Below are positions 20,950 through 45,315 of a stretch of DNA of 64,000 nucleotides, in pieces. Below the pieces are notes generated by a model. It made no database searches, was not told where the DNA came from, and was given only the letters and a program-made list of their open reading frames with translations. Origin of the DNA: an uncultured Bacteriovoracaceae bacterium (GTDB lineage Bacteria > Bdellovibrionota > Bacteriovoracia > Bacteriovoracales > Bacteriovoracaceae); NCBI GenBank assembly GCA_950054155.1, contig CATLOT010000003.1, positions 1 to 64,000 on the forward strand, written 5' to 3'. The position numbers and the translations under genes are program-made. Positions within the stretch are counted from its first letter, which is position 1; every line of letters begins with the position of its first letter.

Positions 20950-21011
20950 CCCTATAATAATCAGAGCAAGAACGTAGCGAGTTCTAAAACTAAGAGAAAT
21001 CCTTTTAAAGT

Positions 21012-23452: not shown

Positions 23453-23468
23453 TGGCATAGGAAATGCA
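23453..23468 (+). promoter_or_regulatory. Sigma-54 promoter of the receiver-domain gene
   Basis: TGGCAT, five bases, then ATGCA gives the invariant GG and GC with 10 bases between. It lies 36 bp before the chosen ATG (23504) of the receiver gene and is divergent from the NtrC-type activator gene. Confidence 0.65.
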
Positions 23469-23503
23469 CTATTTCTAGTAACGAGCTAACCATGGAGGTT
23501 CTT

Positions 23504-24010
23504 ATGTCTCAACTTGCTGAAAAAATAGTGGAAATGGAATTCCAAGAAAACGCCGACGGCGACGAGAGAATTTTATTCGACAATAAAGATCTGGAATTTA
23601 TCTCAAAACACGATCCCTACAAAAGGGTCCTCTTAGTTGAGGATGATTATGGGCAGTTTCAAATACTCAAGGAGATTCTCACCGAAATCAACCATGAGGT
23701 CGAAATTGACTGGGCCCCTGAAGGCGGAATGGCCTTAGCCCAGATTGCTCAGGCCCAAGAAAGGGAGGATGAACGGGAATACGATCTGGTTATTCTGGAC
23801 GTCTTTCTGCGCAACAACAGTCGTGGTACCGACATCCTCCCCCTCTTGGTCAATACTCTCCCAAAACTAAAGGTCATCCTTATTTCGGGTTATTCAAGAG
23901 CAGAGATTAAACGAGAGGAACCCCTGATAAATTATGGCCTCAACTTTATTCAAAAGCCGATAGATATAAGTAAGTTCTATCGTATCGCTAAACCCATTTT
24001 GAGCGAATAG
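23504..24010 (+). CDS. Stand-alone receiver-domain protein
   Basis: 168 residues from ATG 23504, preceded by GGAGG at 23494-23498; the in-frame ATG at 23492 overlaps that site. After a 40-residue N-terminal extension comes a CheY-like receiver: RVLLVEDDYGQF, phospho-Asp in LVILDVFLRNN, the ISGYSR position and IQKPIDI with the conserved Lys. No output domain. Driven by a sigma-54 site and divergent from an NtrC-type regulator, it probably belongs to the same phosphorelay, perhaps as a feedback sink. Confidence 0.8.
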   Translation: MSQLAEKIVEMEFQENADGDERILFDNKDLEFISKHDPYKRVLLVEDDYGQFQILKEILTEINHEVEIDWAPEGGMALAQIAQAQEREDEREYDLVILDVFLRNNSRGTDILPLLVNTLPKLKVILISGYSRAEIKREEPLINYGLNFIQKPIDISKFYRIAKPILSE

Positions 24011-24020
24011 GGAGAGAGCT

Positions 24021-24353
24021 ATGCAACTGTACACACACCAAGAAGAACTTAATGAATGTGAAGACCTAAAGAAAGAGTTTCTCACTCTTTTATGGGAGAG
24101 AGATCACATTACAAGTCGCCTTAGCAATCGCGTTCGCCCTCTGCCCCTAGAATTAAGGACCAAGGTCGACGAGGACTTTAGTAAGATCAATGGACTACTG
24201 AGTATTTGCGATGACAAATTTATAAAAATGAGAGATTCAGATTTTTGGGAAACCGAAATTCTCACCGTAGACCTTCACTTCTTCTTAGAGAAAATAAAAT
24301 CTTATGTTGAAGAGATAAAGAAGACTTCGGGAATAAGAATTACTCCCTACTAA
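24021..24353 (+). CDS. Small helical hypothetical protein
   Basis: 110 residues, no signal peptide, mostly helical and charged, no recognised motif. It begins 10 bases after the receiver gene with GGGAGAG ahead of the ATG, so it shares the sigma-54 transcript and may work with the receiver protein. Confidence 0.6.
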   Translation: MQLYTHQEELNECEDLKKEFLTLLWERDHITSRLSNRVRPLPLELRTKVDEDFSKINGLLSICDDKFIKMRDSDFWETEILTVDLHFFLEKIKSYVEEIKKTSGIRITPY

Positions 24354-24358
24354 CGTCA

Positions 24359-25000
24359 CTAGAAATCTATTCTTAGGACCCCATGTTTGGGGTCCGCTTC
24401 TCTTCTTATTCTATCGTTATAGCCCTCTAAGAGATTAGAGTATTTAACAAAGGCTTCTTCACCGTAGCGCTCTTTAAAAAGCTTGAGGTATTCGCCGCGA
24501 ATTCGCTCTTCATTTTCAACCATCTCTGCGGTGGGACTATAGCTGTATGAACTGCCTTTCTCTTGGGCCATTCGATTATGGAATTCCTGAAAAGCTTCAA
24601 CGCGATCCTCTTCAAAACCATCTCTCATCATAAGATAATCTTCATAGTCTTCTTCACTTAGCTTAAGTTCATTGAGAAAGAGGTTCTTCGTATCCTTGTC
24701 CCACTCTTCTTCATAGTGGGCAAGAAGCTCGTCAAGTTCCTCTACTTCCTCTTCACTAAGGGCTTCAGGAAAAGAGGACTTTGGACTAGAGGAGACAGGC
24801 GCTGCTTTCTTAGGGGCACCTTTACTATCCTCTGTTTTTACTAAGGGCTCTTTGTTTTTAGCAGTGGGCTTTTCTTCTTGATCTAATGGCAGAGAAATAT
24901 CACTTTCAACAAGAATCTCAGGTGGCTGTTGAGAGAAGAAGTAAACCACTCCTAAGGTCAATATTAATATGAGAGAAAGTGCGGCGACAATTTTTTTCAT
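24359..25000 (-). CDS. Membrane-anchored acidic hypothetical protein
   Basis: 213 residues: an N-terminal hydrophobic anchor (about residues 4-23), a Pro/Lys/Ser-rich linker (45-75) and an acidic helical region rich in Glu with repeated EE pairs. No family recognised. The ATG overlaps the stop of the di-heme cytochrome gene by 4 bases, so they are translated together and it may be an accessory of that enzyme. Confidence 0.6.
   Translation of the reverse strand: MKKIVAALSLILILTLGVVYFFSQQPPEILVESDISLPLDQEEKPTAKNKEPLVKTEDSKGAPKKAAPVSSSPKSSFPEALSEEEVEELDELLAHYEEEWDKDTKNLFLNELKLSEEDYEDYLMMRDGFEEDRVEAFQEFHNRMAQEKGSSYSYSPTAEMVENEERIRGEYLKLFKERYGEEAFVKYSNLLEGYNDRIRREADPKHGVLRIDF
24376..24395. terminator. 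Hairpin inside the 3' coding end
   Basis: GGACCCCA pairs with TGGGGTCC around a four-base loop, a perfect 8-bp stem. It lies within the last codons of the minus-strand gene (24359-25000), just past the stop of the convergent gene at 24353, so it may stop transcription from the left. Confidence 0.55.
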
Positions 25001-26691
25001 AGAAGCTTTAAATACTCTCTGAGTGCTCGCTTTTCATCTTCACTCATGCGGGGGTTCCCGTCACGATCATAGAACATTTGAGTGTGACCTGTATTTCGCA
25101 GACCTGGTTTCCTCGTATCAAAGAGGGCGTCTCTTTCTTTATGCCATTCTTTAGGAATATTCTCACCAACGGGGTAGCCTAGACACTCACGATCGTAGTC
25201 ACTCGCTTTTTGACTTGGCCCCTGAATGAAAACTTTAGGCCTATCCTCTTCTCGCATCATAAGAGCGCAGAGATTGGGAATAGAGTTATTATGCATATAG
25301 GGATAGCGAAGAAAAACACCTTCAAGTGGAGGTGGGACATAGCCCTCCTGGGGAACCACAACCGTTTTCATCCATTTTGAGATTTGAAGTTTATTAAGCC
25401 CCCCACTAAAAGTTTTCGTGGCCATCCAGCGCTGAGGATCTGTCCCTACATTCTTCACCGGGGTTTTCTCATGATAAAAAACACGTGCCGTCTGAGTTTG
25501 AACCCTTAAGGGCTCAAGTTCTGCCATAGGATAACTCCACCTCTTTTCATAACGGCCATGACACTTTTTACAAGACTCATTAAAAACGATCTCTCCTCTC
25601 TTTGCTAACTCTATATCAACGCTACTTTCAGGAAAGAAATCGAGCCAATGGGGTGCCTTCGTTGCAAACGCTGCTGCCGTAAGCTTTTCAATCGCCTCAT
25701 CATTTTCTTGCATCCATTTTTCAAGCTCCTTGAGATCCGTTCCACGACCGATTTCATTCCAAAGAAAGTTCGTAAGAATCGGATTTCCTGCGACGATTGA
25801 GCCGTCACTAAGCCAACGGGTCTTGTATTTAAGATTCCACCAGGGCATGGGCTTACTATCGGCAACAAAAGTTTCAAGCTTGTGGCGTGGCCGCCTCCCA
25901 ATGGAGCGACTCCATTTCTTACTCGCATAAGCATCATCGCCACGCTTATGAAGACTCAAGGCCACATGGGGCAGACTTGTATCAAGCCCTAGAACCTGAG
26001 GCGAAACTGATCCGACCCACTTAAGATTGTCTTTTGTTCTTTTAAACATGGCCTTCTCTTCGTAACTAGCTTTAGTGGCCAGACGAAAGAAGCCTGAAGG
26101 AATCATTGGAATATATTTCTTTGCCATCACAAAGAACTCATTGGCCCGTGGTCTCTTATTTGTGAGACCCATAACGGTCTGCCCTAAGAAAGTACCTGAG
26201 TGACAGGTGGCACAGCTAAAAGTAAGGCCTGTGCTGTTGGGACTATGAGGAGTTCTCAAAAGAGAGGCACCCATGCGGTAATCTGGTTTTTGTCCACGCG
26301 TCGGATAGGGAATTTGAAAGACACCACTTACTTGAGAATTTTCTGGATAGAGGTTCAGTCCTAACCATCCATACATTCCATCCATGTCAGTGTAGCCAAG
26401 CTGAGATTCTGCGACCCTTTCAATAAAGCGCCTTAGAGGATTATTCTTCTCCTCTTCAAGAAAGAACTTTAAAGGCTCGTAAGGAACAAGAAGCCCGGTA
26501 ACATCGACTGGCCATTTAAGTGCATGAATATAGCCCTCACTCTTCACGCGAGGAAGGTCCTCTCCAAATCCGTAGATATCTTCTCTTGTTTCTCCCAGAG
26601 GAACAGAAGCATTCTCACTCCAGTCGGGTTTGCCAAAAGAGAGAGCTGAAATCAAAGACAAGCTAAGAAGAAGAGCAGATTTAAGACCCAT
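24997..26691 (-). CDS. Di-heme c-type cytochrome, peroxidase/Rox-like
   Basis: 564 residues from ATG 26691 (GGAG seven bases upstream; a TTG at 26703 is the longer option). Signal peptide ends near ALSFG. Two heme-binding motifs are visible: CATCH (about residue 160) and CKKCH (about residue 375), each followed later by possible distal ligands. Size and arrangement resemble the di-heme cytochrome c peroxidase/MauG and rubber-oxygenase (RoxA) superfamily, acting in the periplasm on peroxide or an organic substrate. Which substrate cannot be told. First gene of a two-gene operon. Confidence 0.72.
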   Translation of the reverse strand: MGLKSALLLSLSLISALSFGKPDWSENASVPLGETREDIYGFGEDLPRVKSEGYIHALKWPVDVTGLLVPYEPLKFFLEEEKNNPLRRFIERVAESQLGYTDMDGMYGWLGLNLYPENSQVSGVFQIPYPTRGQKPDYRMGASLLRTPHSPNSTGLTFSCATCHSGTFLGQTVMGLTNKRPRANEFFVMAKKYIPMIPSGFFRLATKASYEEKAMFKRTKDNLKWVGSVSPQVLGLDTSLPHVALSLHKRGDDAYASKKWSRSIGRRPRHKLETFVADSKPMPWWNLKYKTRWLSDGSIVAGNPILTNFLWNEIGRGTDLKELEKWMQENDEAIEKLTAAAFATKAPHWLDFFPESSVDIELAKRGEIVFNESCKKCHGRYEKRWSYPMAELEPLRVQTQTARVFYHEKTPVKNVGTDPQRWMATKTFSGGLNKLQISKWMKTVVVPQEGYVPPPLEGVFLRYPYMHNNSIPNLCALMMREEDRPKVFIQGPSQKASDYDRECLGYPVGENIPKEWHKERDALFDTRKPGLRNTGHTQMFYDRDGNPRMSEDEKRALREYLKLL

Positions 26692-26833
26692 AAAATTCTC
26701 CAAAATTCATTTCCTTTAGGATTTCATAAGCTCCACCCTTTGTCAGCGCCACCTAAAGTTTAAACACAGTGAAATTCGTGACTAAGAAGAAGACAAAACA
26801 AAGCTATAAATACCTGTAATCACATGAAAGAAG

Positions 26834-26849
26834 TGGCACTTCTCTTGCT
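26834..26849 (+). promoter_or_regulatory. Consensus sigma-54 promoter
   Basis: TGGCAC-TTCTC-TTGCT matches the sigma-54 consensus at every conserved position, with 10 bases between GG and GC. The expected start of transcription is about 26860, and a GGGAG ribosome site and ATG at 26884 follow. The strongest such site in the window. Confidence 0.8.
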
Positions 26850-26883
26850 CTCTTAAGGCATACACACAATGAGGGAGACTCCA

Positions 26884-27297
26884 ATGAAAGTTATAATTCT
26901 TACTCTTATGATGGGCCTAACATTTTCTTGCACTCAACACCGCACACTTAGAGGTCCAGCAAGCGTTGATATCAACTACCTCTCTGATGATCTTATCGAG
27001 ACAACTCAAAATATTAAGACACTAGTCAAGGCCGATAATCTGCCCATTAGTGCCTGCCATAATGAATTACGAAATACCTTCTTAGCCCTTAAAGATCTTC
27101 CTCGCGATCATTTTTCACAGGCTTACTCTCAATCCGATCGTCAAAGAATTCTCTCTGACCTCAAAGAGATTAAGGTTGGTCTTAAAGGACAGGCTTTAAA
27201 ATGGAAAGAACACAAAGTTCTTGATGAGAGATGTGTGAAGGCCACAGAATTTGCCCTTAAGACAACCCATGACCTTCATCAAAGTTTAAAGAGCTAG
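26884..27297 (+). CDS. Small lipoprotein under sigma-54 control
   Basis: 137 residues from ATG 26884 (GGGAG upstream). Signal II sequence with lipobox LTFSC at residues 12-16. The mature part is helical with two further cysteines and no known family. Convergent with gltX and overlapping its 3' end by 12 bases; an AAGAGC/GCTCTT hairpin lies at the junction (27287-27304). A consensus sigma-54 promoter suggests it is switched on by an NtrC-type activator. Confidence 0.7.
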   Translation: MKVIILTLMMGLTFSCTQHRTLRGPASVDINYLSDDLIETTQNIKTLVKADNLPISACHNELRNTFLALKDLPRDHFSQAYSQSDRQRILSDLKEIKVGLKGQALKWKEHKVLDERCVKATEFALKTTHDLHQSLKS

Positions 27298-28725
27298 TCG
27301 GCTCTTCATCACGGCCATTGGAGTGAGGGGGATCACAACTTTAAGATCCGGTCCCTCGGCCATGCCTGTAAGAGCAAGTCTTAAACCTTTAAAGAGAAAC
27401 TTCCCTTTAATTTTAAGTTCCTTCTTACAGTGATTTGTCATTTCATTGAAGGCTTCTACCGAAACAAACTCAGCTCCTTCATCGGCAAGTCTCTTCACTT
27501 CAGACGTCACATATTCTTTGATCTGAGGAGTTGTCTCCCAACTTGCCACTTCCTTACTCTCTTCACTTTCACTAGGAGTTGTACTGAAGAGAACGTCAAG
27601 ATGCTCGGGAAGCTCCTGAGGTGTATTGATTTTTTCTTTAAAGAACTCAAGACAAGTTTCTTGCCATTGCTCACTTTGAGAATGGAAGGGATGATTTTCA
27701 CTTAGAGTTGGCTTTAGGTAAGAGACAAGGTCCTTAGTTGAAAGGCGTCTCATATGCTCACCATTAAAGTGCTTAAGTTTTTCGATATCATAGAGTGCAG
27801 GACTCTTACTAAAGCGCGTGAGGTCAAAGAGAGAAACAATTTCATCAAGGTCCCAAATATCTTTCTCTTCGGGATGAGACCATCCAAGAAGGCACAAGTA
27901 ATTCATAAGGGCCTGGGGAAGAAAGTGTTGGTCTTTATACTGAACAACGGAAGTCGCTCCATGGCGCTTAGAGAGCTTTTGACGATCTTCACCCACGAGA
28001 AGTGAGCAATGGGCAAACTCTGGTGCTTTCGCTCCAAAGGCTTCATAAATCAGAAGCTGGCGCACAGTATTGTTAAGATGCTCCTCGGCTCTCATGACAT
28101 GAGTCATCTCCATTTTCCAATCATCGATCACACAACAAAAGTTATAAACGGGCATGCCATTTGAGCGCATGATCACAAAGTCACCAACCATGTCCTCAGG
28201 AAAAGTTACTTCTCCTCTGACAAGGTCCGTGAAAGTCACTTTCTTATTGGGATTCTTAAAACGAATGACATGAGTTTCACCGGCGGCCACACGCTTTTGC
28301 GCCTCAGCCGGATCGAGATCGCGATACTTATCATGATAGATGTGAGGGGCTTTATTTTCACTCTTTGCTTTTTCCGTCAGCTCTTCAAGCTCATCGTTTG
28401 TAAGAAAGCATGGATAGGCCTTCCCTTCGCTCACAAGCTGCTCAGCAAGTCCTTTATAAATTTCTGTTCTTTCGCTTTGGCGATAAGGACCAAAGTCGCC
28501 CCCTTTACCCGGGCCTTCATGCCACTCTAGTCCACACCACTTTAGGTCTTCAACCATGGCCTCTTCATATTCACGCTTTGAGCGCTCAAGGTCAGTATCC
28601 TCGATTCTGAGAATGAAAGATCCTCCATTGGCCTTAGCAAAGAGATGACAATAAAGGGCAGTTCTAGCGCCTCCAATATGGAGTAAACCAGTCGGACTTG
28701 GGGCAAAACGGACGCGAACACTCAT
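27286..28725 (-). CDS. gltX: Glutamyl-tRNA synthetase
   Basis: 479 residues, normal length. Class I signature PSPTGLLHIGGARTALY (HIGH-type motif HIGG) near residue 10 and KLSKRHGA (KMSKS-type) near 250. The C-terminal helical anticodon-binding region is present. Charges tRNA-Glu (and perhaps tRNA-Gln). A shorter paralogue for queuosine modification is found at 33897-34718. Confidence 0.95.
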   Translation of the reverse strand: MSVRVRFAPSPTGLLHIGGARTALYCHLFAKANGGSFILRIEDTDLERSKREYEEAMVEDLKWCGLEWHEGPGKGGDFGPYRQSERTEIYKGLAEQLVSEGKAYPCFLTNDELEELTEKAKSENKAPHIYHDKYRDLDPAEAQKRVAAGETHVIRFKNPNKKVTFTDLVRGEVTFPEDMVGDFVIMRSNGMPVYNFCCVIDDWKMEMTHVMRAEEHLNNTVRQLLIYEAFGAKAPEFAHCSLLVGEDRQKLSKRHGATSVVQYKDQHFLPQALMNYLCLLGWSHPEEKDIWDLDEIVSLFDLTRFSKSPALYDIEKLKHFNGEHMRRLSTKDLVSYLKPTLSENHPFHSQSEQWQETCLEFFKEKINTPQELPEHLDVLFSTTPSESEESKEVASWETTPQIKEYVTSEVKRLADEGAEFVSVEAFNEMTNHCKKELKIKGKFLFKGLRLALTGMAEGPDLKVVIPLTPMAVMKSRLAL

Positions 28726-28806
28726 AAATAGACCTCAAAATAAAGAAATTAGTGATTTTAGGACATTATTAATACACAAATTGGTGGAATCTGTCGAAGA
28801 GAGATC

Positions 28807-29907
28807 ATGATTAAAGTTCTCTACTATCTAAGACTTAACGCAGCTCTCATTCTTGGACTCTTCCTCGCCCTGCCCTTTCTCAATGAGAATCCAACCCACA
28901 GACTGCCTGCAAGTGAAGCCCCCTCAGGATCGTGCTTTCACATTATGCGAGAAAGTCTTGAGCGCCATGGTAGCTTTACCCCAAGGGGTCCAGCGATCAA
29001 GGAGAGAATCCCAAACTTTGAAGTCAAAATTCAGAATATTGAATCGAGGATTATCACCCCAAAAGACTTTGCCCGCACATTTAAAAGAGAGAAAGGACGC
29101 TGGCCATTGATTAAAGAGATGGTCGACTTTTTTGAAAGTGGTCACGAGGCTCTAATGAGAGAAATTCAAGCTCTTGAAGAAGGCGCTGGGGATGATCGCG
29201 AGCTCTCGTATTATGTTAATGAGACCTTAAATGCCCTTGAAATGAGTGAGAAGGAACAACAGAATATCATCACTTTTAAAGCAGAAAATCCCCAACTCCT
29301 CGAGACAACTTATGACATCAATGATGGTGAAATGGTTCAAAAAATGGAATGGCTTTGGAAAAATCCCTTTGGGGATTATGGTGAACTTCTCGTCGCCTTA
29401 AAAACACCAGGAGTTGAAGTGCAAAATCTTCATCTTCGCATTCTTCCTAACCAGACGATCTCTGACAATTCGAGGCGCCATAAAGAGATTGTAGCGCGGG
29501 CCCTCGATATTAAATTTCAAGAACTCGAAGGATTACCCCCAGCTGAAGTGGCGGCCTATAAAAATCGTTACCCCATCGTCTTTACAGAAGCGAGAGCGCA
29601 AAGTCTTGAGGATGTTCGCCATTGGATTGAAAGTAAGGAAGTGGATTTAGTGGTCAATGTTGAAGGCCGTGGTCACTACTTTGTTGAAGTCAAAAACTAC
29701 AATCGTGAAGTTGACCGCTCCAAGATTGAGAGCGGTTATCGCAATAAGAAATCAATCCTTGAACAGCAAAAGGAGATGGTGGAGATCATTCATTTTCTAG
29801 GTCTTGAGCGCAAGTACATCCCGGCCATACACTTTGTAAAAGGAGTAAATGCCGAGGCGAAAGAGGTGCTTGAGCAAAATGGAGTGCTGGTTATTGAGGA
29901 TATTTAA
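28807..29907 (+). CDS. Membrane-associated PD-(D/E)XK-like protein
   Basis: 366 residues with an N-terminal hydrophobic segment (about residues 10-23), a helical middle, and a C-terminal domain with VDLVVNVEGRG followed by HYFVEVKNYNRE. The D...E-x-K pattern matches the nuclease core of the PD-(D/E)XK superfamily. It may be an exported or membrane-tethered nuclease, though the family also has non-nuclease members. It directly abuts, tail to tail, the aldehyde dehydrogenase gene. I do not recognise a named family. Confidence 0.55.
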   Translation: MIKVLYYLRLNAALILGLFLALPFLNENPTHRLPASEAPSGSCFHIMRESLERHGSFTPRGPAIKERIPNFEVKIQNIESRIITPKDFARTFKREKGRWPLIKEMVDFFESGHEALMREIQALEEGAGDDRELSYYVNETLNALEMSEKEQQNIITFKAENPQLLETTYDINDGEMVQKMEWLWKNPFGDYGELLVALKTPGVEVQNLHLRILPNQTISDNSRRHKEIVARALDIKFQELEGLPPAEVAAYKNRYPIVFTEARAQSLEDVRHWIESKEVDLVVNVEGRGHYFVEVKNYNREVDRSKIESGYRNKKSILEQQKEMVEIIHFLGLERKYIPAIHFVKGVNAEAKEVLEQNGVLVIEDI

Positions 29908-31308
29908 TCAAAAGACCAAAAGGCGCTCTTCTGTCATTTCTCTCATACTGTAGAGAAGTCCCTCGCGACCAAGACCTGAATCTTTTACTCCCCCATAGGG
30001 CATCGGATCAAGACGAAAGCCTGGCACGCCATTCATGATCACTCCTCCCACCTCAAGTTCATCGTGGGCCAATTTCATATGATCGATATTTTGGGTGTAA
30101 ACACCTGCTTGTAAACCAAAGCGAGAGTCATTGATCTTTTCAATTCCCTCTTCAATAGAGTTTACGGACTCAATGAGGGCAACGGGTGCGAAGGCCTCTT
30201 CATCGACAATCTTCATTCCTCTCTTCGTCTTGGTTAGAAGGGTTGCTTCATAGAGATTCGCTTTCGCTTCATGGATCTTTCCTCCACAGAGGATCTCAGC
30301 TCCCTCACTCACGGCCTCTTCCACCCAAGATGAAATACGCTCAAGGTGCTCATCGGCAATTAAGGGACCCACAATCACTTCAGAGTCACTAGGGTCTCCA
30401 GATTTAAGTGTGGCTATTTCTTTGATTAACGCCTTCTCTAACAGAGAGCGAACGTCCTGGTGAACAAAGATTCTCTGGGTGCTAATACATATCTGGCCAC
30501 TGTAGAGATAAGCCCCTTGGCAAATCTCTTTGGCTATTTTTTGAGCTTCCTTTTCACCAGTGAGGGAACTCTTATCCACATAGACGGCTGCATTTCCGCC
30601 CAGCTCTAAGAGAACTTTCTTTTTCCCAGCTCTTTCTTTAAGCATCCAGCCAATCTTGGGGGAGCCGGTAAAGCTTAACATCTTTATTCTTTCCTCTTTT
30701 ACAAGCTCATTACTAAGGTCTGTATCACAGCAGATGACTTGAAAGAGTCCCTCAGGTACACCACACTCCTTTACGAGTTCCTCAAAAGCGAGGAGGGCTA
30801 GTGGCGTGTAGTGGGAAGGTTTAATCAGAATGGCGTTACCCGTGGCTAGAGCAGGCACTATTTTATGAAGAGCGAGATTGAGGGGAAAGTTAAAGGGAGA
30901 TATTCCTAAAATAACCCCCACTGGATAGCGCCCAGTGATGGCCTTCTTTCCTTTGCCCTTACCATAATCAAAGGGAACGACTTCTCCACAAAAGCGAAGA
31001 GCTTCACTGGCGCCCCACTTAATCGTCGCAAGAGAGCGATCAAGCTCCGCTTCAGCATAAGAGCGAGGCTTTCCCGCTTCTTTAATAATGAGGTCGACGA
31101 ATCTTTCTTTTTCTTGGGATAATTTTTGATGGATTTTTTCAAGCCACTCACTTCTCTCTTCGGCACTTGTCTTCTTATATTCGTCAAAGGACTGGAGGGA
31201 TTTTTTGAGGGCGCTTTCAACTTGGTCTGCGTTTAGGAGTTCAACTTTTTGAATAACTTCTTGGTTGTATTTATCAAGGACGTTCCAAAAATTCTTCTCT
31301 GTGCTCAT
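29908..31308 (-). CDS. NAD(P)-dependent aldehyde dehydrogenase
   Basis: 466 residues of the ALDH superfamily. GISPFNFPLNL (cofactor region), LLELGGNAA with the general-base Glu, and YSGQICIST with the catalytic Cys are all present. It oxidises an aldehyde to the acid; the non-phosphorylating glyceraldehyde-3-phosphate or succinate-semialdehyde groups are nearest in general pattern, but the substrate is not clear. AAGGAG precedes the ATG. Confidence 0.88.
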   Translation of the reverse strand: MSTEKNFWNVLDKYNQEVIQKVELLNADQVESALKKSLQSFDEYKKTSAEERSEWLEKIHQKLSQEKERFVDLIIKEAGKPRSYAEAELDRSLATIKWGASEALRFCGEVVPFDYGKGKGKKAITGRYPVGVILGISPFNFPLNLALHKIVPALATGNAILIKPSHYTPLALLAFEELVKECGVPEGLFQVICCDTDLSNELVKEERIKMLSFTGSPKIGWMLKERAGKKKVLLELGGNAAVYVDKSSLTGEKEAQKIAKEICQGAYLYSGQICISTQRIFVHQDVRSLLEKALIKEIATLKSGDPSDSEVIVGPLIADEHLERISSWVEEAVSEGAEILCGGKIHEAKANLYEATLLTKTKRGMKIVDEEAFAPVALIESVNSIEEGIEKINDSRFGLQAGVYTQNIDHMKLAHDELEVGGVIMNGVPGFRLDPMPYGGVKDSGLGREGLLYSMREMTEERLLVF

Positions 31309-31356
31309 TGTTTCTCCTTATACGTTGATAAGGAGAGGGTCTCAATTCAAATTGCT

Positions 31357-31611
31357 CTAGTCAAAGAGACCCATGCCACCATCGGAAGAACTTTTACTAG
31401 ACACGAGGGTTTGGGCGAATTGAATATTCTGCGCCAGAAACCTCGTCTCACCACTTCTAAAGAGATGGATATCACAAAGCCGACAAAGCTTTACGGAAGC
31501 CACTCGCCCTACAAAAACTTTGTAAAGTCTGGCCGGAACCATTTTTGACTGGGGGCCGCAGCGATAGCTAGCATCTCTCCCCTCAGCACTACAACAATCA
31601 CACATAAACAA
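31357..31611 (-). CDS. Small Cys-rich, zinc-ribbon-like protein
   Basis: 84 residues, starting MFMCDCCSAEG, with further cysteines in RCG and KLCRLCDIH, forming two CxxC-like knuckles that could bind one zinc. A GAGG lies about 7 bases before the ATG. No named family. It lies upstream of, and in the same direction as, the aldehyde dehydrogenase. Confidence 0.55.
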   Translation of the reverse strand: MFMCDCCSAEGRDASYRCGPQSKMVPARLYKVFVGRVASVKLCRLCDIHLFRSGETRFLAQNIQFAQTLVSSKSSSDGGMGLFD

Positions 31612-34718: not shown

Positions 34719-34722
34719 TTTC

Positions 34723-35412
34723 TTAGAGCCACTCTTGCATAATAAACTGATTAGAGAAATCAGAGCAGGGTCTGTTGACCGCTCTTATACTGACAAAACC
34801 ATGTTGATCTTGATTGTCGGTGGTAGTGGGTGTCACGATAGATGATCTTTCAATAATAAAAGGATAGAACGTTCCATTACGACTTTGAAATTCGACGATT
34901 TGAATCCAATCGCGCTCAACCTCAGTAAAGAAGCTGATTTGATGACGAAAGGGAGCTACGGTTCTTGTGTTTTGAGGATTAATACCTGCTAACACCTGAT
35001 CACAAAAGGGTTCTATTTTTGAGTGCTGGTCACTAAGAACATCGGTAAAAATGGGCGTTGAAGGATTGAGGTTAGAGAGAGAAAGGTTTCCATCTCTATT
35101 CATCATCATTCTTCCCTGGCCACGCTCAACCGAAGGGTTCTCTTGGCCGCAGACTTTTTCTGAGACTCGATAATCGAGCACCAAACCTTGAGCCTGCCTA
35201 GCAAGAAAAGCACGCTTCTTTTGAAAGCTCTGACAGACACGCTTAGCAATAGCTAACTCATCTTCTCCAAGTTGAGATGAGGCCTTAAGGGGCTCAAGCC
35301 AATTATAAGGATTATTATTTCCAACCACGTCTGGTGTTTCTTCTGAGTTTTGCTCGCCACAAGAAAAGAGAACTAGTGAGAGGGCAATGATCGTAAGAAA
35401 GCTTTTGCTCAT
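34723..35412 (-). CDS. Lipoprotein of unknown function
   Basis: 229 residues with a lipobox VLFSC (Cys at residue 18) and a linker rich in Glu/Asn. Three or four further cysteines in the mature part may form disulfides. No family recognised. It ends 4 bases after gluQ begins upstream on the same strand, so the two may be co-transcribed. Confidence 0.65.
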   Translation of the reverse strand: MSKSFLTIIALSLVLFSCGEQNSEETPDVVGNNNPYNWLEPLKASSQLGEDELAIAKRVCQSFQKKRAFLARQAQGLVLDYRVSEKVCGQENPSVERGQGRMMMNRDGNLSLSNLNPSTPIFTDVLSDQHSKIEPFCDQVLAGINPQNTRTVAPFRHQISFFTEVERDWIQIVEFQSRNGTFYPFIIERSSIVTPTTTDNQDQHGFVSIRAVNRPCSDFSNQFIMQEWL

Positions 35413-35439
35413 ATTATCATCCTTGAAAATATTAGAGTT

Positions 35440-37362
35440 CTAATTATTATGACCATCTTTGGCCAAAACGTTAAGTGGCTTTACATCATAATGACTGACA
35501 TTACTCTCCACCCACGCCTGTGCTTCCTTCGAGTCATAGTCTTCAGGGGCTATGGGAGAACTCAGTGTAAGAGTAATTTTTCTCCTCCTTAAGCTTGGCA
35601 TTTTAAAGAGAACCTTCCCTCCTTCAAAGCTAAAGAGGCTGCCCCAAAGCCCATCAAGGGCCGCAAGAACAACGGGAACCGGACGTTGCTTTAGAATCTT
35701 AGCGGCTCCTGGCTGAAAACGCCTCATCTTACCATCTCGCGTAATCCAGCCCTCTGGGAATAGTCCCATAACTGAACCGTTATCAAGATCTTGGTAGATC
35801 AGTTCGAAGGCCTTTGTCAGAACTTCTTCACTCTCCTTACGGGTAGCAATGGGGACGAGACCTGCTTGGCGAAACCAAAAAGGCCCCGTAGGCATATAGT
35901 AGTAACTATAATCAATGACAAAGTGAATAGGTCTCTCCACTGCTCCCATTAAAATGACCCAATCAACGAAGCTCACATGATTGGCGAGAATGATCACGGG
36001 TCCTTCTTTGGGAAAGTCTTCCCCCCCTTTCACTTCAACACGATAAAAAACCTTACTCAAAAAACGCATCCATAGCATAAGAGTCTGCTCTGAGTAGGTA
36101 AAATAGAGAAGAAAAGCGACCACAAGATTAATAAGACCCAACACGAGAAAGGATAATGAGATCCCAATCGTTTTAGTGAGCACCATAATGAGCACAGCGG
36201 CGACAACCATAAAGAGGGCGTTCCAAATATTATTTCCTGCAATGGTCTGGGAAAGCTCCCCTTCTTTGGATACCGTCTGAAGGAAGGCCATATTCGTGAC
36301 GATATAACCCCCTCCAAAGACAGACATTCCAAGGAGACCGATGAAGGCACCTTTCGAGTAGGGCTTAAAAAAGAATTCACTTATTCCAAACAGCTCATTG
36401 GGGACCTGAAGTCCCATGCGCTGCTGCCCCACAAAGGCGAGAATACTGAGAAAGACCGTCATTCCAAGAGCACAAATGGGAACAAGTCCAACTTCCACAC
36501 TCTTCTTAGAAATCCTTGCTGTTAAGAAACTTCCTAGTCCCATACCAATCGTGAAAGTCGCGAGAAAATAAGTCGCGACTTTTGAATCCCCCTGAAGAAC
36601 TTCTTTAACAAAGAGAGGGAGTAAACTTAAAACAGCAGCGCCGAGAAACCAAAACCAACTGATTCCAAGCACTGTTGTAAAGATGGTCTTATTCTTTTGG
36701 GTCAAGCGAATGATATCCCATGTGGGCTTTAAGAAAGTATAATCAACCTTAGTGTTCACTCCTTCTTTACTAATGGCAACATCATCGATGAAGCGACTAA
36801 AGAGGTAACCGACAAGGCCAAAGCCAAGAAGTCCTAAACTCAAAGGCACGACATAGCTTTCAAGACTTGGGACAAGCCCCCCAATAATTGTTCCAATAAG
36901 AATGGCAATAAAAGTGCCCCCACTGACAAACGCATTGGCCGAGACAAGCTTTTCGGGTTTTACAAGGCTTGGAATAATTCCATATTTTAAAGGTCCAAAG
37001 AAAGCGGACTGACTGCCCATAAGAAAGAGAACAAAGAGAAGAAGAGCGTAGTTATCCAGAGTGAAGCTAACACTTGCAATACTCATGATAATTATCTCTG
37101 CAAGCTTAATCTTTCTAATAAGCTCGGCTTTTTGAAACTTATCGGCCATTTGCCCAGAGGTTGCACTGAAGATAAAGAAGGGGAAAATAAAAATCCCTCC
37201 AGCAAGAGGGACTAATAATTTGGCATCGAGGGGCCCAAGCTGCACAGCCCGATATGTGATAAGAATGACAAGGGCATTCTTAAAGAAATTGTCATTGAGG
37301 GCGCCCAGGAACTGAGTCCAAAATAACGGCCAAAACTTCTTATCCCTGAAGATGAGTTCCAC
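35440..37362 (-). CDS. LplT-like MFS transporter fused to PlsC-type acyltransferase
   Basis: 640 residues from GTG 37362 (GAGGAG seven bases upstream; a TTG at 37377 is the longer option). The first ~420 residues are a 12-helix MFS domain starting FWPLFWTQFLGALNDNFFKN, the hallmark of lysophospholipid transporters. The last ~200 residues are an acylglycerophosphate acyltransferase with NHVSFVDW (HX4D catalytic motif) and FPEGWITRDG. It should flip lysophospholipid inward and re-acylate it. Unlike E. coli Aas there is no acyl-ACP synthetase domain. A hairpin covers its ribosome binding site. Confidence 0.87.
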   Translation of the reverse strand: MELIFRDKKFWPLFWTQFLGALNDNFFKNALVILITYRAVQLGPLDAKLLVPLAGGIFIFPFFIFSATSGQMADKFQKAELIRKIKLAEIIIMSIASVSFTLDNYALLLFVLFLMGSQSAFFGPLKYGIIPSLVKPEKLVSANAFVSGGTFIAILIGTIIGGLVPSLESYVVPLSLGLLGFGLVGYLFSRFIDDVAISKEGVNTKVDYTFLKPTWDIIRLTQKNKTIFTTVLGISWFWFLGAAVLSLLPLFVKEVLQGDSKVATYFLATFTIGMGLGSFLTARISKKSVEVGLVPICALGMTVFLSILAFVGQQRMGLQVPNELFGISEFFFKPYSKGAFIGLLGMSVFGGGYIVTNMAFLQTVSKEGELSQTIAGNNIWNALFMVVAAVLIMVLTKTIGISLSFLVLGLINLVVAFLLYFTYSEQTLMLWMRFLSKVFYRVEVKGGEDFPKEGPVIILANHVSFVDWVILMGAVERPIHFVIDYSYYYMPTGPFWFRQAGLVPIATRKESEEVLTKAFELIYQDLDNGSVMGLFPEGWITRDGKMRRFQPGAAKILKQRPVPVVLAALDGLWGSLFSFEGGKVLFKMPSLRRRKITLTLSSPIAPEDYDSKEAQAWVESNVSHYDVKPLNVLAKDGHNN

Positions 37363-37363
37363 A

Positions 37364-37393
37364 ATAAAGCTCCTCAATTAAAGTGAGCTTTAT
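37364..37393 (-). promoter_or_regulatory. Hairpin covering the ribosome binding site
   Basis: ATAAAGCTC and GAGCTTTAT form a perfect 9-bp stem (37364-37372 with 37385-37393). On the minus strand the GAGGAG ribosome site spans loop and 3' arm and the stem ends one base before the GTG start at 37362, so the fold would block translation until opened. Confidence 0.5.
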
Positions 37394-37404
37394 TTTAGCA
37401 CCGC

Positions 37405-37914
37405 CTATTTTGCAAATCTAGGAGTGATTTTTGAGATTCCAATTACTTTTCCAAAGACTTTATTAAGATTGAAGTCTAAGCGTTCCACTTTTGAGCCCTG
37501 GTAGTAAACAATCCACTCTCTTCCATCAAATTCAAAGTCGAGAGCAATTCTTCCTTTAGAACCAGTGATTCCATTTTGAAGAAATTCAATCTTAAAGTGA
37601 CCACCACGATCTTTTTCAAAATTACGCGACTGAAGCACTATGACCTTATGGCTTCCCTCTTGTTTAACAACAACGCCACGAGGTAGCTTTGAGACATCGT
37701 AATCTTCCCACTTCTTATCTTCATGGTCATAGAGTCTAAGTCCTACGGCATTAAGATTCTCATCCCCTTTGATAAAGAGCTCAAAATTTACATTTCGATC
37801 AACATTCTTAAGAGTAAGAATTTTGATATCACCAGCCTTGCTAGCAAAACTAGAGAGCTGGATTAGAGCTGCAATAACAAAGATTATGGCCTTTGGGTTA
37901 AGTAGGTTTTTCAT
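37405..37914 (-). CDS. Secreted hypothetical protein
   Basis: 169 residues from ATG 37914, chosen because GGAG lies 6 bases ahead and it gives a normal signal peptide (ending near SSFASKA, residue 27). The mature part is basic with strands and ends in GISKITPRFAK; no family recognised. It lies 42 bases upstream of the transporter-acyltransferase gene. Confidence 0.6.
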   Translation of the reverse strand: MKNLLNPKAIIFVIAALIQLSSFASKAGDIKILTLKNVDRNVNFELFIKGDENLNAVGLRLYDHEDKKWEDYDVSKLPRGVVVKQEGSHKVIVLQSRNFEKDRGGHFKIEFLQNGITGSKGRIALDFEFDGREWIVYYQGSKVERLDFNLNKVFGKVIGISKITPRFAK

Positions 37915-38077
37915 CTTATTCTCCATAAAATTCTTTTCGTTGGGTGAAGCCACTCTACAATGAATGAGCTTCTCAATGTTTCACATTTGTAAAAAATCCA
38001 AGCCTCCTCCTTCTCGGGGCCAAATTGACCCTTTTTAGGTCATTGCCTGAGGCCTATTATTCCTCTAAGATCCCCAT

Positions 38078-38734
38078 ATGATTGAACTTTACCACTACAT
38101 CCATTGTCCTTTTTGCCTTCGTATTCGCCTGTCTCTTGGCCTACTTGATCTGCCCTACAAGTCTATTCCCTTGGGTTATGAAGATGAGAAGACGCCTCTC
38201 GAGTTGACTGGGGTGAAGATGCTTCCGATTGCCGTTATCAATGGGAAGCCCATGAATGAATCCCTTGATATCCTCAAGAAACTAGATATTAAGGGTGAGC
38301 TCAATCTTGATATACTTGATTCTCATGGGGAGAAGATCGACGAGCTCCTCGGACGACTGGGAAAGCCCATTCATAATTTGGCCATGCCCTACTGGATGTA
38401 CACTAAAGAATTCACTAAGGAATCACGGGAGTACTTTCAAAAGAAGAAGGAACTTAAGCGTGGTCCTTTCAATGAACTGGTTCAAAAACAAGAAGACTTT
38501 CTTGAGGAGCTTGCGCCTCTTTTAAAGGAAGTGGAGGCCCTGATTGGCCCCTTTATGCTTAAGCAAAGAGACTTTACGATATTAGATATAATGCTTGCCT
38601 CCCACCTTTGGGGGCTCTACGTTGTTCCTGAATTTCAATTTAGTCCCTTCCTCCACCGCTACCTACAAATGGTGAAAAAGGTCTGTAACTTTAATTATCA
38701 TCAAGACCTTTGGGATGGAACTTTAGGCCATTAA
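38078..38734 (+). CDS. grxB: Glutaredoxin 2 (GrxB)
   Basis: 218 residues, the GST-like glutaredoxin 2 type. N-terminal thioredoxin fold with active site HCPFC at residues 9-13 and cis-Pro LPIAVIN, then the all-helical GrxB C-terminal domain. Reduces glutathione mixed disulfides in the cytoplasm. No ribosome binding site is obvious before the ATG. Confidence 0.85.
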   Translation: MIELYHYIHCPFCLRIRLSLGLLDLPYKSIPLGYEDEKTPLELTGVKMLPIAVINGKPMNESLDILKKLDIKGELNLDILDSHGEKIDELLGRLGKPIHNLAMPYWMYTKEFTKESREYFQKKKELKRGPFNELVQKQEDFLEELAPLLKEVEALIGPFMLKQRDFTILDIMLASHLWGLYVVPEFQFSPFLHRYLQMVKKVCNFNYHQDLWDGTLGH

Positions 38735-38735
38735 C

Positions 38736-39596
38736 CTATTCACCAACAATAATAAAATAGTCAGCGACTTCACCGTATTTTACATGTGGCTTGAGGGCAT
38801 CCGTTAATTCAGAGTCAGAGAGCCCACTAGCGTCAATCATTCTGATCAGCACGGGCTTCACAGCTCCTAAATCTCTTAAGTATTCAGGGAGGCCATGACC
38901 AAAGTCACTATGAAAGTGCCCCACGATCATAAAGGACGTAGAAGTGTGATTTTTTTCGATTTGATCGGCCATAACCGCATCTGTATAAGACTGGGCCAAG
39001 AAGTAATTTTCAAATGTAGCCGGGTCACCATGTCCACCCATCGCCGCAATAAAGCGCTCAAGGTAAGCATCATTGCCTCTTCTCAAACCTCTTGGAGTTT
39101 CATCTGCATTGAGGGCTTGAAAGCCATCACTCACTATCTTTCTCTTCCATTCTCTTGGGGCATTAGTGGCAATGATCTTCCCACCATAAATTTTGGCAGC
39201 ATCAAAGAGAGGGCGATAGAGAATATTATCTCCGGGATTTCGGCCAAAGGCCTCTTTCATCATGGCATCAAATGAGACTAGCCCTTGCGACCACTTCTCA
39301 AACTCAGCCTCGATGATACTTTGGCGAGGAAAGTCCAAAAACTCCCACGCCACATTAAAGTCTTCTTGCAGTCCATGCTCTTTGACAAAGCTTTTAATGA
39401 ACTCTCCCTGCGCCTCTTGAATTTCTTGGACGTAATGAGTTTCACCCAGGACATAAATCCCACTGGCCTCAAGAGTCTTGACCGCCTCTTTTAAAGGAAG
39501 TTTTTCACCAGTTTGGGGATTGTAGAAAACTGTTGCCCCTGCACAGCTGGTGAAAATGAAAGAGAGGATGATACTAAAGACTCTAACTAAGTGCAT
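38736..39596 (-). CDS. ChaN-family iron/heme-associated lipoprotein
   Basis: 286 residues with lipobox FTSC (Cys18). ChaN/DUF399 features: YVLGETHYVQ early, an internal helical lid, and MIVGHFHSDFGHGLPEYLR late, with histidines that bind heme in studied relatives. Likely an outer-membrane-facing lipoprotein for heme or iron handling. Divergent from trmB and tail-to-tail with grxB. Confidence 0.78.
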   Translation of the reverse strand: MHLVRVFSIILSFIFTSCAGATVFYNPQTGEKLPLKEAVKTLEASGIYVLGETHYVQEIQEAQGEFIKSFVKEHGLQEDFNVAWEFLDFPRQSIIEAEFEKWSQGLVSFDAMMKEAFGRNPGDNILYRPLFDAAKIYGGKIIATNAPREWKRKIVSDGFQALNADETPRGLRRGNDAYLERFIAAMGGHGDPATFENYFLAQSYTDAVMADQIEKNHTSTSFMIVGHFHSDFGHGLPEYLRDLGAVKPVLIRMIDASGLSDSELTDALKPHVKYGEVADYFIIVGE

Positions 39597-39661
39597 AAAA
39601 CATTCCTAAGATCGTTGTGATACAGATAAACGCTACCTCTTTTTCATAGAGTCGCCAAGAA

Positions 39662-40309
39662 GTGAGTAAAAAGGTGAAAATAACGGAATACGCAGAAAAA
39701 TTAAAAAAGAAAAGCTTCAACCCAGCTGATGTAAGGCCTCCCCGTGACCTTAGTCCCTGGCCCGAAAATAACAAGGGCTTAATTTTAGAGGTAGGCTGTG
39801 GCGTTGGACTTCATCCCATCTTGTGGGCTAAGAAGCCTCAACACCAAAGGCTGCTCTTAATTGCTTGTGAAAGAACGCAAGAAAAGTTTGAAAAGTTTAA
39901 TAGGCGTTTTGAAAATCACCGCTTCAACAATATTCTTCCCATCCATGAGGATGCTCTCCACTGGCTTTGCTCCCATTATGAAAAAACAAGAGAAGCCTTT
40001 GAGAAAATTTTCTTTCTCTATCCTAATCCCTATCCCAAGGAAAATCAGCGTAACAAGAGATTCTTAGGGATGCCCTCTTTTACTATCTACCTTCAATCCC
40101 TCCAAAGAGGTGGAGTCATTGAGCTTCGAACAAATATAAAAGAGTATCTTGAGGAAGCGCGCTTCTTGGCACACGCTGTTTGGAATCTGACCGTGGTGTA
40201 TGCTGGTGAACTTAGAGAGGAAGATGACAAAGGTGTGACCCACTTTGAGCGCAAATACCTCAAGCGTGGAGAAACATGCTACCTTCTTCTCTTAAAAAAA
40301 GAAGACTAG
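39662..40309 (+). CDS. trmB: tRNA (guanine-N7)-methyltransferase, TrmB family
   Basis: 215 residues from GTG 39662. SAM site LILEVGCGVGLHP, then FFLYPNPYPKENQRNKR, which replaces the family's FPDPWPKKRHxKRR, and THFERKYLKRGE at the end (family T-x-[YF]-E-x-K). It makes m7G46 in tRNA. The active-site Asp of FPDPWPK reads Asn here, a notable change, but the remaining motif is conserved. Confidence 0.75.
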   Translation: MSKKVKITEYAEKLKKKSFNPADVRPPRDLSPWPENNKGLILEVGCGVGLHPILWAKKPQHQRLLLIACERTQEKFEKFNRRFENHRFNNILPIHEDALHWLCSHYEKTREAFEKIFFLYPNPYPKENQRNKRFLGMPSFTIYLQSLQRGGVIELRTNIKEYLEEARFLAHAVWNLTVVYAGELREEDDKGVTHFERKYLKRGETCYLLLLKKED

Positions 40310-40677
40310 GAAGACTTTCTAACAGTATTTGAGATCATCTCGACTACCTCTTCAAGGTCGAAGGGCTTAAAGATAACCGCATTGACTCCTAGACCACTGA
40401 GGTCTTCTGCCGTGTAATCTGAAAAGCCCGTCACAAGAAAAATAGGAATATCAGTTCCCTTCTCTTTAACGTTCTTAACGAGAGATACTCCATCACCGCC
40501 AGGCATTCGAATATCACTTACAATACAATCGACATTACTTGTTTGAAAAAGTTCAAAAGCATCGGCACCGTTAGATGCTTCAAGAACCTTGAATCCATTA
40601 TCAACAAATTCATCTCTAAAGAGCTCTAAGATATCTGCCTCATCATCAACACACAAAATCACTTTTTCGGTACTCAT
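40306..40677 (-). CDS. Single-domain response regulator (CheY-like)
   Basis: 123 residues, a receiver only. VILCVDDEADI, phospho-Asp in DCIVSDIRMPGGDG, LVTGFSD and FKPFDL contain the usual acidic, Asp, Thr and Lys positions. No output domain, so it acts by protein contact or as a phosphate shuttle, for instance to an HPt domain (two are present in this window). No kinase gene is adjacent. Confidence 0.85.
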   Translation of the reverse strand: MSTEKVILCVDDEADILELFRDEFVDNGFKVLEASNGADAFELFQTSNVDCIVSDIRMPGGDGVSLVKNVKEKGTDIPIFLVTGFSDYTAEDLSGLGVNAVIFKPFDLEEVVEMISNTVRKSS

Positions 40678-40826
40678 GAACTTTTTAACCTTTTAAATTT
40701 TTGAAACTTATTTCTCTATTATGAGTTATATCCCTGAAAATATAAAGTTTTTTTAATGGGCCAGTACATTCTTCCCCTTCTCGTCTAGTGAACATCAAAC
40801 ATTCAAAATGCCGATCCCTACTGACG

Positions 40827-40854
40827 ATGCGTTTGCTACACGCATTATTTTTTT
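40827..40854 (+). terminator. Leader terminator/attenuator just before a ribosome site
   Basis: ATGCGT (40827-40832) pairs with ACGCAT (40840-40845) around a 7-base loop and is followed by a run of seven T (40848-40854). The GGAGG of the next gene begins immediately after. An intrinsic terminator at this place suggests attenuation or insulation from upstream transcription. Confidence 0.55.
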
Positions 40855-40864
40855 GGAGGGTACA

Positions 40865-41695
40865 ATGAATAAAGTACTTTACTCAGTTATTCTTTTTTCC
40901 AATCTCTTTTCATTCTCAACTCATGCTGTTGAGGAAATTAATATTACCAATGCCCACATTTCAAGTAGCTCTGAAGAGAGAGTGGCCACTCTTGAGGCCA
41001 GTGATGTCCTTATTAGTGCTCTGCCTTTTAAAATTAGCCATCCCGCTCCTGTGATTCATTTTCAGCTGCATGATAATGGAATCCAGGCGCAAATGAATGA
41101 ACTCCTGCTTGATTATCAATTCAATGAAGAAGGTGTTCTTTCCAACCTCAGTGGAATTGACACCCAAAACTTTGATCTCTTCTACAAAAATGCTCAGGAA
41201 CTCAATCTTAGCCTCGATTACCTCACCTTAAATTTTGATGGTCAAAAAACTCATATTCCTAGACTTGATCTCACTTGCCAGAGGGATAATCTCAAGGCCC
41301 TGCCCTTTAATCTCGACCTTTGCCTTCAAGTGGGTCGCGTGAGTATGCCAGTTCTCAATCTTGATCAACTCACCACCAAGAGTATTGCCCATAAGTTTCA
41401 GGACCTCACCGGCTTAAAGAGTAATCAAAAAGGTCTTGATGAATTAGAAGATATCAATATCCAAGTTTTTAAGGGCTCCCTCAATATGAGCTTCAAAGCG
41501 AAATTTCTCTTTAAATGGAAAGTTAAAGTAAAAGGCCACACCTCGTGGAGTGAGGACAAGCAACAACTTAGAATTGATGTTCACAGTGCCAAGGTAGGTT
41601 TTCTCTCTATAAAGAAGACTCTTTTTAATGCGATAAGGGATGCCAATATTGCAGCTCTCAAGATAAGTGGAAACTCTTTAATTATTCAACTCTAA
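40865..41695 (+). CDS. Secreted hypothetical protein
   Basis: 276 residues from ATG 40865, with GGAGG 5 bases upstream; the frame is open to 40808 but that would break the signal peptide, which ends near FSTHA. The mature protein is beta-rich with repeated LDYQF/LNFDG-type strands and two cysteines, and may bind lipid or line the envelope. No family recognised. A terminator-like hairpin in the leader suggests conditional expression. Confidence 0.6.
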   Translation: MNKVLYSVILFSNLFSFSTHAVEEINITNAHISSSSEERVATLEASDVLISALPFKISHPAPVIHFQLHDNGIQAQMNELLLDYQFNEEGVLSNLSGIDTQNFDLFYKNAQELNLSLDYLTLNFDGQKTHIPRLDLTCQRDNLKALPFNLDLCLQVGRVSMPVLNLDQLTTKSIAHKFQDLTGLKSNQKGLDELEDINIQVFKGSLNMSFKAKFLFKWKVKVKGHTSWSEDKQQLRIDVHSAKVGFLSIKKTLFNAIRDANIAALKISGNSLIIQL

Positions 41696-42336
41696 GGAAC
41701 TTTGTACTGCTTAAGAGCGTTTACCTGAATGAGTTTATCTTCTTCAACATGGTAGGCGCTCAATTTCCCCCCCCATACACAGCCTGTATCGAGACCAATA
41801 CAATTAGCCCTCTTCACATAGCCTTTCAATGCCCAATGGCCAAAGAAAACCATTTTTTTGCCCTGATAAAAGTCAAACCAAGGAGGATCATTCTCATTAT
41901 CCATATCAAGAGAGTTTCCGCCCCAAGTTCTTATTCTGGTGGCGACCTCTGCTCTTTGCTGGTGAAGATCAAGGCCTGGCTCCAATCCGCCATGAATACA
42001 AATAAAGTTCTCTTCTTCGATGTAGAGAGGTAATGTCTTTAGCCAAGTAATGATCTCTTCACGCTCCTGCCCAAGCTTTTCAAGAAGTTCATAAAAGCGA
42101 GGTCTTCGCCATTGTTCATCCTCAAGCGCTTTGAGAAAACCGAGTTCATGATTGCCAAGAATACACTCATGCTTACCCTTTCTCACAAAGTTGAGGGTTT
42201 CCACAGAAAAAGGACCTTTATTAATAAGGTCTCCTAAGAAGATAAGGCGATCCCCTTCCTCATAAGAAGCTTTCTTGAGTAAGAGCTGGAGCTCTTCATA
42301 ACAGCCGTGAATATCACCAATAATAAGAGTTTTCAT
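41692..42336 (-). CDS. Metallophosphatase of the PPP/ApaH-PrpE type
   Basis: 214 residues. All metal-site motifs of the calcineurin-like fold are present: GDIHGC, GDLINKGP, GNHELG, HGGLEPG and a late GHWAL, plus GLDTGCVWGGKLSA, which is typical of ApaH/bacterial PPP phosphatases. It cleaves diadenosine tetraphosphate or phosphoserine/threonine; shorter than E. coli ApaH (about 280), closer to PrpE or lambda-phosphatase types. It overlaps the convergent neighbour by 4 bases. Confidence 0.83.
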   Translation of the reverse strand: MKTLIIGDIHGCYEELQLLLKKASYEEGDRLIFLGDLINKGPFSVETLNFVRKGKHECILGNHELGFLKALEDEQWRRPRFYELLEKLGQEREEIITWLKTLPLYIEEENFICIHGGLEPGLDLHQQRAEVATRIRTWGGNSLDMDNENDPPWFDFYQGKKMVFFGHWALKGYVKRANCIGLDTGCVWGGKLSAYHVEEDKLIQVNALKQYKVP

Positions 42337-42414
42337 GTGTTCCTATCCTAGCATAGTGCCTAAACTTTAAACATCCCCACGATCTTAAGTCTTTGAAATC
42401 TTGGCTTTCAAGAG

Positions 42415-42430
42415 TGGCAACAATAATGCA
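42415..42430 (+). promoter_or_regulatory. Sigma-54 promoter of the metalloprotease lipoprotein
   Basis: TGGCAA-CAATA-ATGCA has the invariant GG and GC separated by 10 bases. Transcription would start near 42441, just before GAGGAG (42445-42450) and the GTG start at 42455. Confidence 0.6.
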
Positions 42431-45145: not shown

Positions 45146-45202
45146 GACTCTGATTTTAGCTCTCCCGATAAGTTGAGCGAATAAATTTCACACGGTGTCT
45201 AT

Positions 45203-45248: not shown

Positions 45249-45315
45249 TCCCATTCTTTTTTTGGCATCAAGATTGAATATAAATAGGCAGAGAGAATTA
45301 AAAAAGGAACACACC

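Follow-up and report, generated by a model that had tools for sequence, protein, structure and literature searches.

Predicted sigma-54 promoters and a shared upstream dyad in front of exported-protein genes of an uncultured Bacteriovoracaceae bacterium

The stretch of DNA described here (the window; 64,000 nucleotides, positions 1 to 64,000 of the forward strand of contig CATLOT010000003.1, assembly GCA_950054155.1) is from an uncultured Bacteriovoracaceae bacterium and contains sigma-54 promoter elements in front of genes for a receiver protein, two lipoproteins, and a membrane protein. An earlier note on this DNA had proposed three of these elements, as GG-N10-GC sites at 23453, 26834, and 42415, and they are present exactly as proposed: all three lie in spacer on the plus strand, with GG at −24, GC at −12, and ten bases between, ahead of starts that have ribosome sites. 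A fourth element, at 45263, was overlooked. The elements, the genes behind them, and the enhancer dyads upstream are as follows.

23453 to 23468, plus strand: sigma-54 −24/−12 element of the receiver gene, TGGCATAGGAAATGCA
23504 to 24010, plus strand: stand-alone receiver protein with an N-terminal extension (Pfam Response_reg, 6.6e-11); start picked by a GGAGG ribosome site
26750 to 26766, plus strand: weak enhancer dyad CACCTA-aagtt-TAAACA, 84 bp upstream of the −24 element
26779 to 26795, plus strand: second weak dyad TGACTA-agaag-AAGACA, 55 bp upstream of the −24 element
26834 to 26849, plus strand: sigma-54 element, TGGCACTTCTCTTGCT
26884 to 27297, plus strand: small lipoprotein with the lipobox TFSC
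42357 to 42373, plus strand: enhancer dyad TGCCTA-aactt-TAAACA, 58 bp upstream of the −24 element
42415 to 42430, plus strand: sigma-54 element, TGGCAACAATAATGCA, kept before orthologs
42455 to 43015, plus strand: lipoprotein with an HELGHCxLxRxH zinc motif and a tentatively metzincin-like predicted fold
45196 to 45212, plus strand: enhancer dyad TGTCTA-taatt-TAAACA, 67 bp upstream of the −24 element
45263 to 45278, plus strand: fourth sigma-54 element, TGGCATCAAGATTGAA, with GA and not GC at −12
45316 to 45822, plus strand: membrane protein (MDYQIVKARK...) with no Pfam match; start ATG 45316

The best-fitting starts behind the three proposed elements are ATG 23504, ATG 26884, and GTG 42455, and the starts given by the open reading frame (ORF) caller are further upstream. 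The element at 26834 has one mismatch to TGGCACG-N4-TTGCW. The ribosome sites had been placed 20 to 50 bp after the elements, which needs a small correction at 42415, where the ribosome site follows the −12 element by approximately 12 bp and thus leaves a short leader of approximately 14 bases.

Over the whole window, the sites that were scored with a sigma-54 matrix, which is an approximation of the published consensus and not a trained one, did not clearly outnumber those in shuffled sequence (11 versus 9.3 at a score of at least 10, and 2 versus 0.7 at a score of at least 15); thus, the presence of the motif alone proves little. In promoter-proximal spacer, where chance matches had been expected to be rare, three sites were found versus approximately 0.15 expected in 20 100-bp stretches (P of approximately 5e-4, the number of stretches being an estimate). 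The proposal depended on an rpoN gene, and the genome (3.5 Mb, 61 contigs) has one (PF04552, E = 2e-65). Genome-wide, where the work consisted of pattern searches and selected stretches, the pattern TGGCAYRN4WTGCW with at most one mismatch was found 166 times versus 56 times for the reversed pattern, which suggests that the genome contains approximately 100 sigma-54 promoters and not a few; 10 of the 15 exact matches lie in spacer.

The elements recur before orthologous genes. A first ortholog set for the 42455 lipoprotein has 18 members, counting the window copy, and in each of them a sigma-54-like site lies no more than 81 bp from the aligned start; the −12 of one is weak. No site was found for L083, which is an additional copy in one genome, or for three remote matches. 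Among named orthologs, which partly overlap with the first set, 22 of 24 have a sigma-54 site just upstream, and the control with neighbouring genes at the same loci gave sites before 0 of 13, 1 of 10, 0 of 8, 1 of 5, and 0 of 11. The best-matching named relatives of this lipoprotein belong to the Bacteriovoracaceae and Halobacteriovoraceae and are mostly metagenome-assembled genomes, including Halobacteriovorax marinus. The site at 45263 was found before all seven orthologs of the membrane protein gene, each time with a dyad-like sequence upstream, and six of the seven pass a stricter site rule. The −12 in these orthologs is always weak (GA, GG, or GT, never GC), and we read the element as a conserved weak promoter. 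Sites also precede both best homologs of the receiver gene (L033 and L034), and the 26834 site is conserved in one paralog and one relative only. The rpoN gene, the position in promoter-proximal spacer, the genome-wide excess, and the conservation before orthologs, which is the strongest of these points, argue that the three proposed elements are real sigma-54 promoters, which confirms the earlier observation.

In the six genomes of the same genus that were read, a dyad of the form TGYYTA-N5-TARRCA is shared upstream of the zinc-lipoprotein site. Family-wide, it tends to TGTCTA-N5-TAGACA, and in most orthologs it starts 57 to 58, 66 to 68, or 77 to 79 bp before the −24. Across 49 genomes of the Bacteriovoracaceae and Halobacteriovoraceae, 127 exact copies of the dyad TGTCTA-N5-TAGACA were counted, versus 11 of the reversed control. 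Among the distinct exact dyads that were read, 41 of 81 have a sigma-54 site at 30 to 125 bp, versus 4% at random positions of the same loci, and the distances peak at 56 to 58, 65 to 69, 74 to 80, and 83 to 89 bp. The dyad thus lies upstream at helically phased distances (Rayleigh p of approximately 3e-6 at 10.5 bp, several periods having been tried), as is expected of an upstream activating sequence. Nearly all of the ORFs behind the dyads start with a signal peptide or lipobox according to a simple rule. The set of 81 was chosen by availability and includes a few loci that are not from the family, and a small number of genomes contribute a large share (15 dyads are from G020), so the counts are not independent events. 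These sequences suggest that the dyad set is a regulon of exported proteins and not a handful of genes, to which at least two genes of the window (42455 and the overlooked 45316) would belong. The genes behind the sites bear out envelope or exported proteins as the theme of the promoters, in line with the surface proteins suggested earlier.

The 26884 lipoprotein is probably a further member of this dyad regulon. The score of the 26750 dyad is reached in approximately 5% of random 220-bp stretches, and the match is only probably genuine. The lipoprotein is related to the N-terminal part of a protein of approximately 512 amino acids encoded elsewhere in the same genome (L091/L208 on contig C21; Pfam Peptidase_C92), in front of which the sigma-54 element TGGCATGCAAAGTGCA is preceded at 66 bp by a perfect dyad. 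This paralog is an exported C92 protein (YiiX-like permuted papain).

The genome encodes nine clear proteins with a sigma-54 activation domain, six of which keep GAFTGA or GAFSGA together with the Walker B motif. The best candidate for the activator of the dyad genes lies on another contig, at G000:C1:43759-45249 (the C1 activator), and is an NtrC-type response regulator with a PF00158 match, GAFTGA, an intact Walker B, and a C-terminal helix-turn-helix (HTH) segment. At this locus, a CHASE2 histidine kinase gene is followed by the activator gene and then by lspA and lgt homologs (Pfam CHASE2, Peptidase_A8, and LGT). The activator matches 45 of 48 family relatives at the cut-off; the match in G007 is just 54% identical, which leaves 44 likely orthologs, three of which are partial, with identities of mostly 69 to 94%. 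The HTH core GKINQTALKANIPKKTLLRKIEKY hardly varies among the 30 best-matching loci, and all but two of these loci have lspA and/or lgt next to the activator gene. In other families, the kinase-activator pair is kept and no lspA or lgt is detectable beside it.

The receiver gene has an NtrC-type activator gene as neighbour, on the opposite strand.

21994 to 23346, minus strand: NtrC-type response regulator with a receiver, a sigma-54 activation domain, and a Fis-type HTH (Pfam Response_reg, Sigma54_activat 2.7e-70, and HTH_8)

In this protein, GAFSGA replaces GAFTGA. Its closest orthologs (48% identical, nearly full length) are in G042 and G027, from two other genera, and there too the gene is divergent from that of a receiver homolog (31 to 33% identical) with a good sigma-54 site. 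This divergent layout is usual for an activator beside its target and accounts for the site at 23453. The receiver promoter is without the dyad of the 42415 and 45263 promoters (and probably of 26834), and no shared enhancer dyad was recognised in the divergent spacer of the three genera in which it was sought. The receiver gene would thus be the target of the adjacent activator, in a separate conserved module.

Our best explanation, to which we give a probability of roughly 0.7 as a whole, is that two sigma-54 circuits meet in the window and that the C1 activator reads the dyad. In one circuit, the NtrC-type protein at 21994 would drive the divergent receiver gene at 23504. The other would be a family-wide regulon of exported proteins, to which the window contributes the 42455 operon with its downstream esterase and LspA genes, the membrane protein at 45316, and probably also the lipoprotein at 26884. 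An enhancer-binding protein, most likely the C1 activator, would sit on TGTCTA-N5-TAGACA approximately 55 to 90 bp upstream, on the same helix face relative to the −24/−12, and open the promoter. The CHASE2 histidine kinase would phosphorylate this activator upon a putative envelope or extracellular signal, and the LspA and Lgt of the C1 operon would mature the lipoproteins. What the DNA itself shows is the sites and their conservation, the dyad and its helical phasing, and that most targets are exported; the binding of the dyad by the C1 protein, the signal, co-transcription, and any effect on expression are proposed.

The link between dyad and C1 activator is drawn from their co-occurrence. 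Outside the family, the 15 genomes that match the activator strongly contain 31 dyads, versus 4 in the 15 that do not (p = 0.0016), the activator being called by an E-value cut-off that may include paralogs. G032 (99% complete), a genome without exact dyads, is without the C1 activator and keeps relatives of the other core activators (L172, L173, L177, L178, L179, and L180). Besides the possible paralogs, several points weigh against the explanation. Seven family genomes carry the activator yet not one exact dyad, which makes the case of G032 weak evidence by itself; neither a dyad nor a good sigma-54 site was found when the C1 activator operon was searched, so there is no autoregulation to support the link; approximately half of the exact dyads are without a recognisable sigma-54 site; and the dyad in front of the 26884 gene matches weakly.

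It is conceivable, if unlikely, that the promoters and the dyad regulon are real and that the dyad answers to another enhancer-binding protein, such as the orthologs of L172, L173, or L177, or to more than one. These orthologs are likewise conserved in the dyad-bearing genomes; however, relatives of all three are retained in the dyad-free G032, where the C1 activator is the only member of the core set that is missing. In addition, L172 lies near flagellar genes and L173 adjoins acyl-CoA carboxylase genes, which suggests other targets. We consider it improbable that the dyad is a repressor site or a site for some other transcription factor that is near sigma-54 promoters by coincidence, with activation from elsewhere. 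Such a role would suit the half of the dyads that have no nearby sigma-54 site, as well as one dyad in a repressor-like position, where it overlaps with the ribosome site of a gene for a degenerate enhancer-binding-like protein, but it would not account for the helical phasing of the distances, and the 6-N5-6 size of the dyad is that expected for the site of a Fis-type HTH dimer.

The interpretation in the earlier note, in which the local NtrC-type protein at 21994 drives all of the sites as one small regulon, appears very improbable to us. That protein is a plausible sigma-54 activator, is near two of the sites, and is divergent from the receiver gene. On the other hand, its closest orthologs are confined to two other genera, whereas zinc-lipoprotein promoters with the dyad are spread over many genera that lack a close ortholog; the receiver promoter beside it lacks such a dyad; and the dyad regulon is far larger and extends across the family. 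That interpretation is therefore supported in part, i.e., for the sigma-54 promoters and the envelope or exported-protein theme and not for a single local regulon. Chance motif matches, to which the window-wide matrix scores would point because they are not clearly above those of shuffled sequence, have a negligible probability in view of the conservation before orthologs with its neighbouring-gene control and the linked dyad, and chance is already contradicted for 42415 and 45263.

The arrangement resembles that of NtrC-type enhancers, in which two 6-mers spaced by 5 stand upstream of a GG-N10-GC promoter and the reader is a response regulator with a sigma-54 activation domain and a Fis-type HTH, here the candidate activator. 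The NtrC site is TGCACC-N5-GGTGCA, whereas the half-site here is TGTCTA, the targets are exported proteins and not nitrogen genes, and the operon holds a CHASE2 kinase, LspA, and Lgt. The Rrp2-RpoN system of Borrelia, in which an NtrC-type regulator and sigma-54 likewise lead to lipoprotein expression, acts largely via RpoS; here, in contrast, the dyad and the sigma-54 site directly precede the lipoprotein genes. Lipoprotein control by this Borrelia system is named by Francke et al. (2011; PMC3162934), who argued that sigma-54 controls the bacterial exterior, with envelope and lipoprotein functions as its targets. This theme matches the regulon described here, although the main text of that paper does not mention Bdellovibrio, LspA, Lgt, or this dyad or activator. 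Bdellovibrio bacteriovorus has an rpoN-like gene, bd0843 (PMC3464611 and PMC11209729). Our literature search, which covered Bdellovibrio sigma-54/RpoN and CHASE2-sigma-54 and had subscription journals largely outside its scope, found no regulon for bd0843 and no prior description of the dyad, the activator, or the regulon.

From three isolated motif matches there now emerges a regulon that can be put to the test, with its enhancer defined, a candidate for its activator, and its targets listed. The bacteria in question are mostly uncultured and related to predatory ones, and little is known of the timing of their surface and secreted protein display. In these relatives of predatory marine bacteria, exported proteins appear to be switched on together through one shared control element. 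A more far-reaching and rather doubtful idea is that a phylum-wide two-component sigma-54 system, composed of the CHASE2 kinase and the very conserved activator, runs a secretome and lipoprotein regulon via one enhancer; within the family, where it carries LspA and Lgt, it would couple the synthesis of the substrates to their processing, possibly at a predation stage.

Two further genes follow the 42455 lipoprotein gene.

43025 to 43651, plus strand: carboxylesterase (Pfam Abhydrolase_2, 1.6e-25); the gene order is the same in close relatives
43666 to 44178, plus strand: LspA, lipoprotein signal peptidase (Pfam Peptidase_A8, 1.7e-30), 15 bp past the esterase

The esterase gene is probably co-transcribed with that of the lipoprotein, as judged from this arrangement. 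The lipoprotein matches no Pfam family. Its predicted structure has a mean pLDDT of 87, and a Foldseek search with this model gave no significant match. VIA-align gave middling matches to metzincins, namely MMP-11 (Z = 8.3, root mean square deviation of 2.8 over 113 residues) and snapalysin (6.9). Compared with the metzincin motif HExxHxxGxxH and its Met-turn, the third His of HELGHCxLxRxH is one residue later, and an invariant S-x-M is found downstream. These two motifs tentatively fit a metzincin-like protease with an unusual position of the third ligand. Distant homologs of this HELGHC lipoprotein are common in the Saprospiraceae (L116 to L171), and those that were read have no good sigma-54 site.

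The degenerate activator-like protein mentioned above (L201; G000:C49:12492-14042) has a GAF-like N-terminus, AAA+, and HTH, with the GAFTGA loop lost and DE of Walker B changed to NN; it is possibly a degenerate antagonist. The dyad TGTCTAGGAGATAAACA that overlaps its ribosome site was not seen in the orthologs that were read and was set aside. In five small genomes of other families (G051, G059, G063, G066, and G077), 42 to 61 strict sigma-54 sites each and no exact dyads were found, which points to large sigma-54 regulons with different activators. Within the window, the NtrC-type gene is part of one minus-strand cluster (18787 to 23346) with genes for a 332-amino-acid exported protein and for a hybrid histidine kinase that carries receiver and Hpt domains. 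At 24997 to 26703, divergent from the 26884 gene, a large protein is encoded that has two haem motifs and a match to RoxA-like cytochrome c, and a high-scoring sigma-54-like site, TGGCCCACGACTTGCG, is located at 12856 to 12871.

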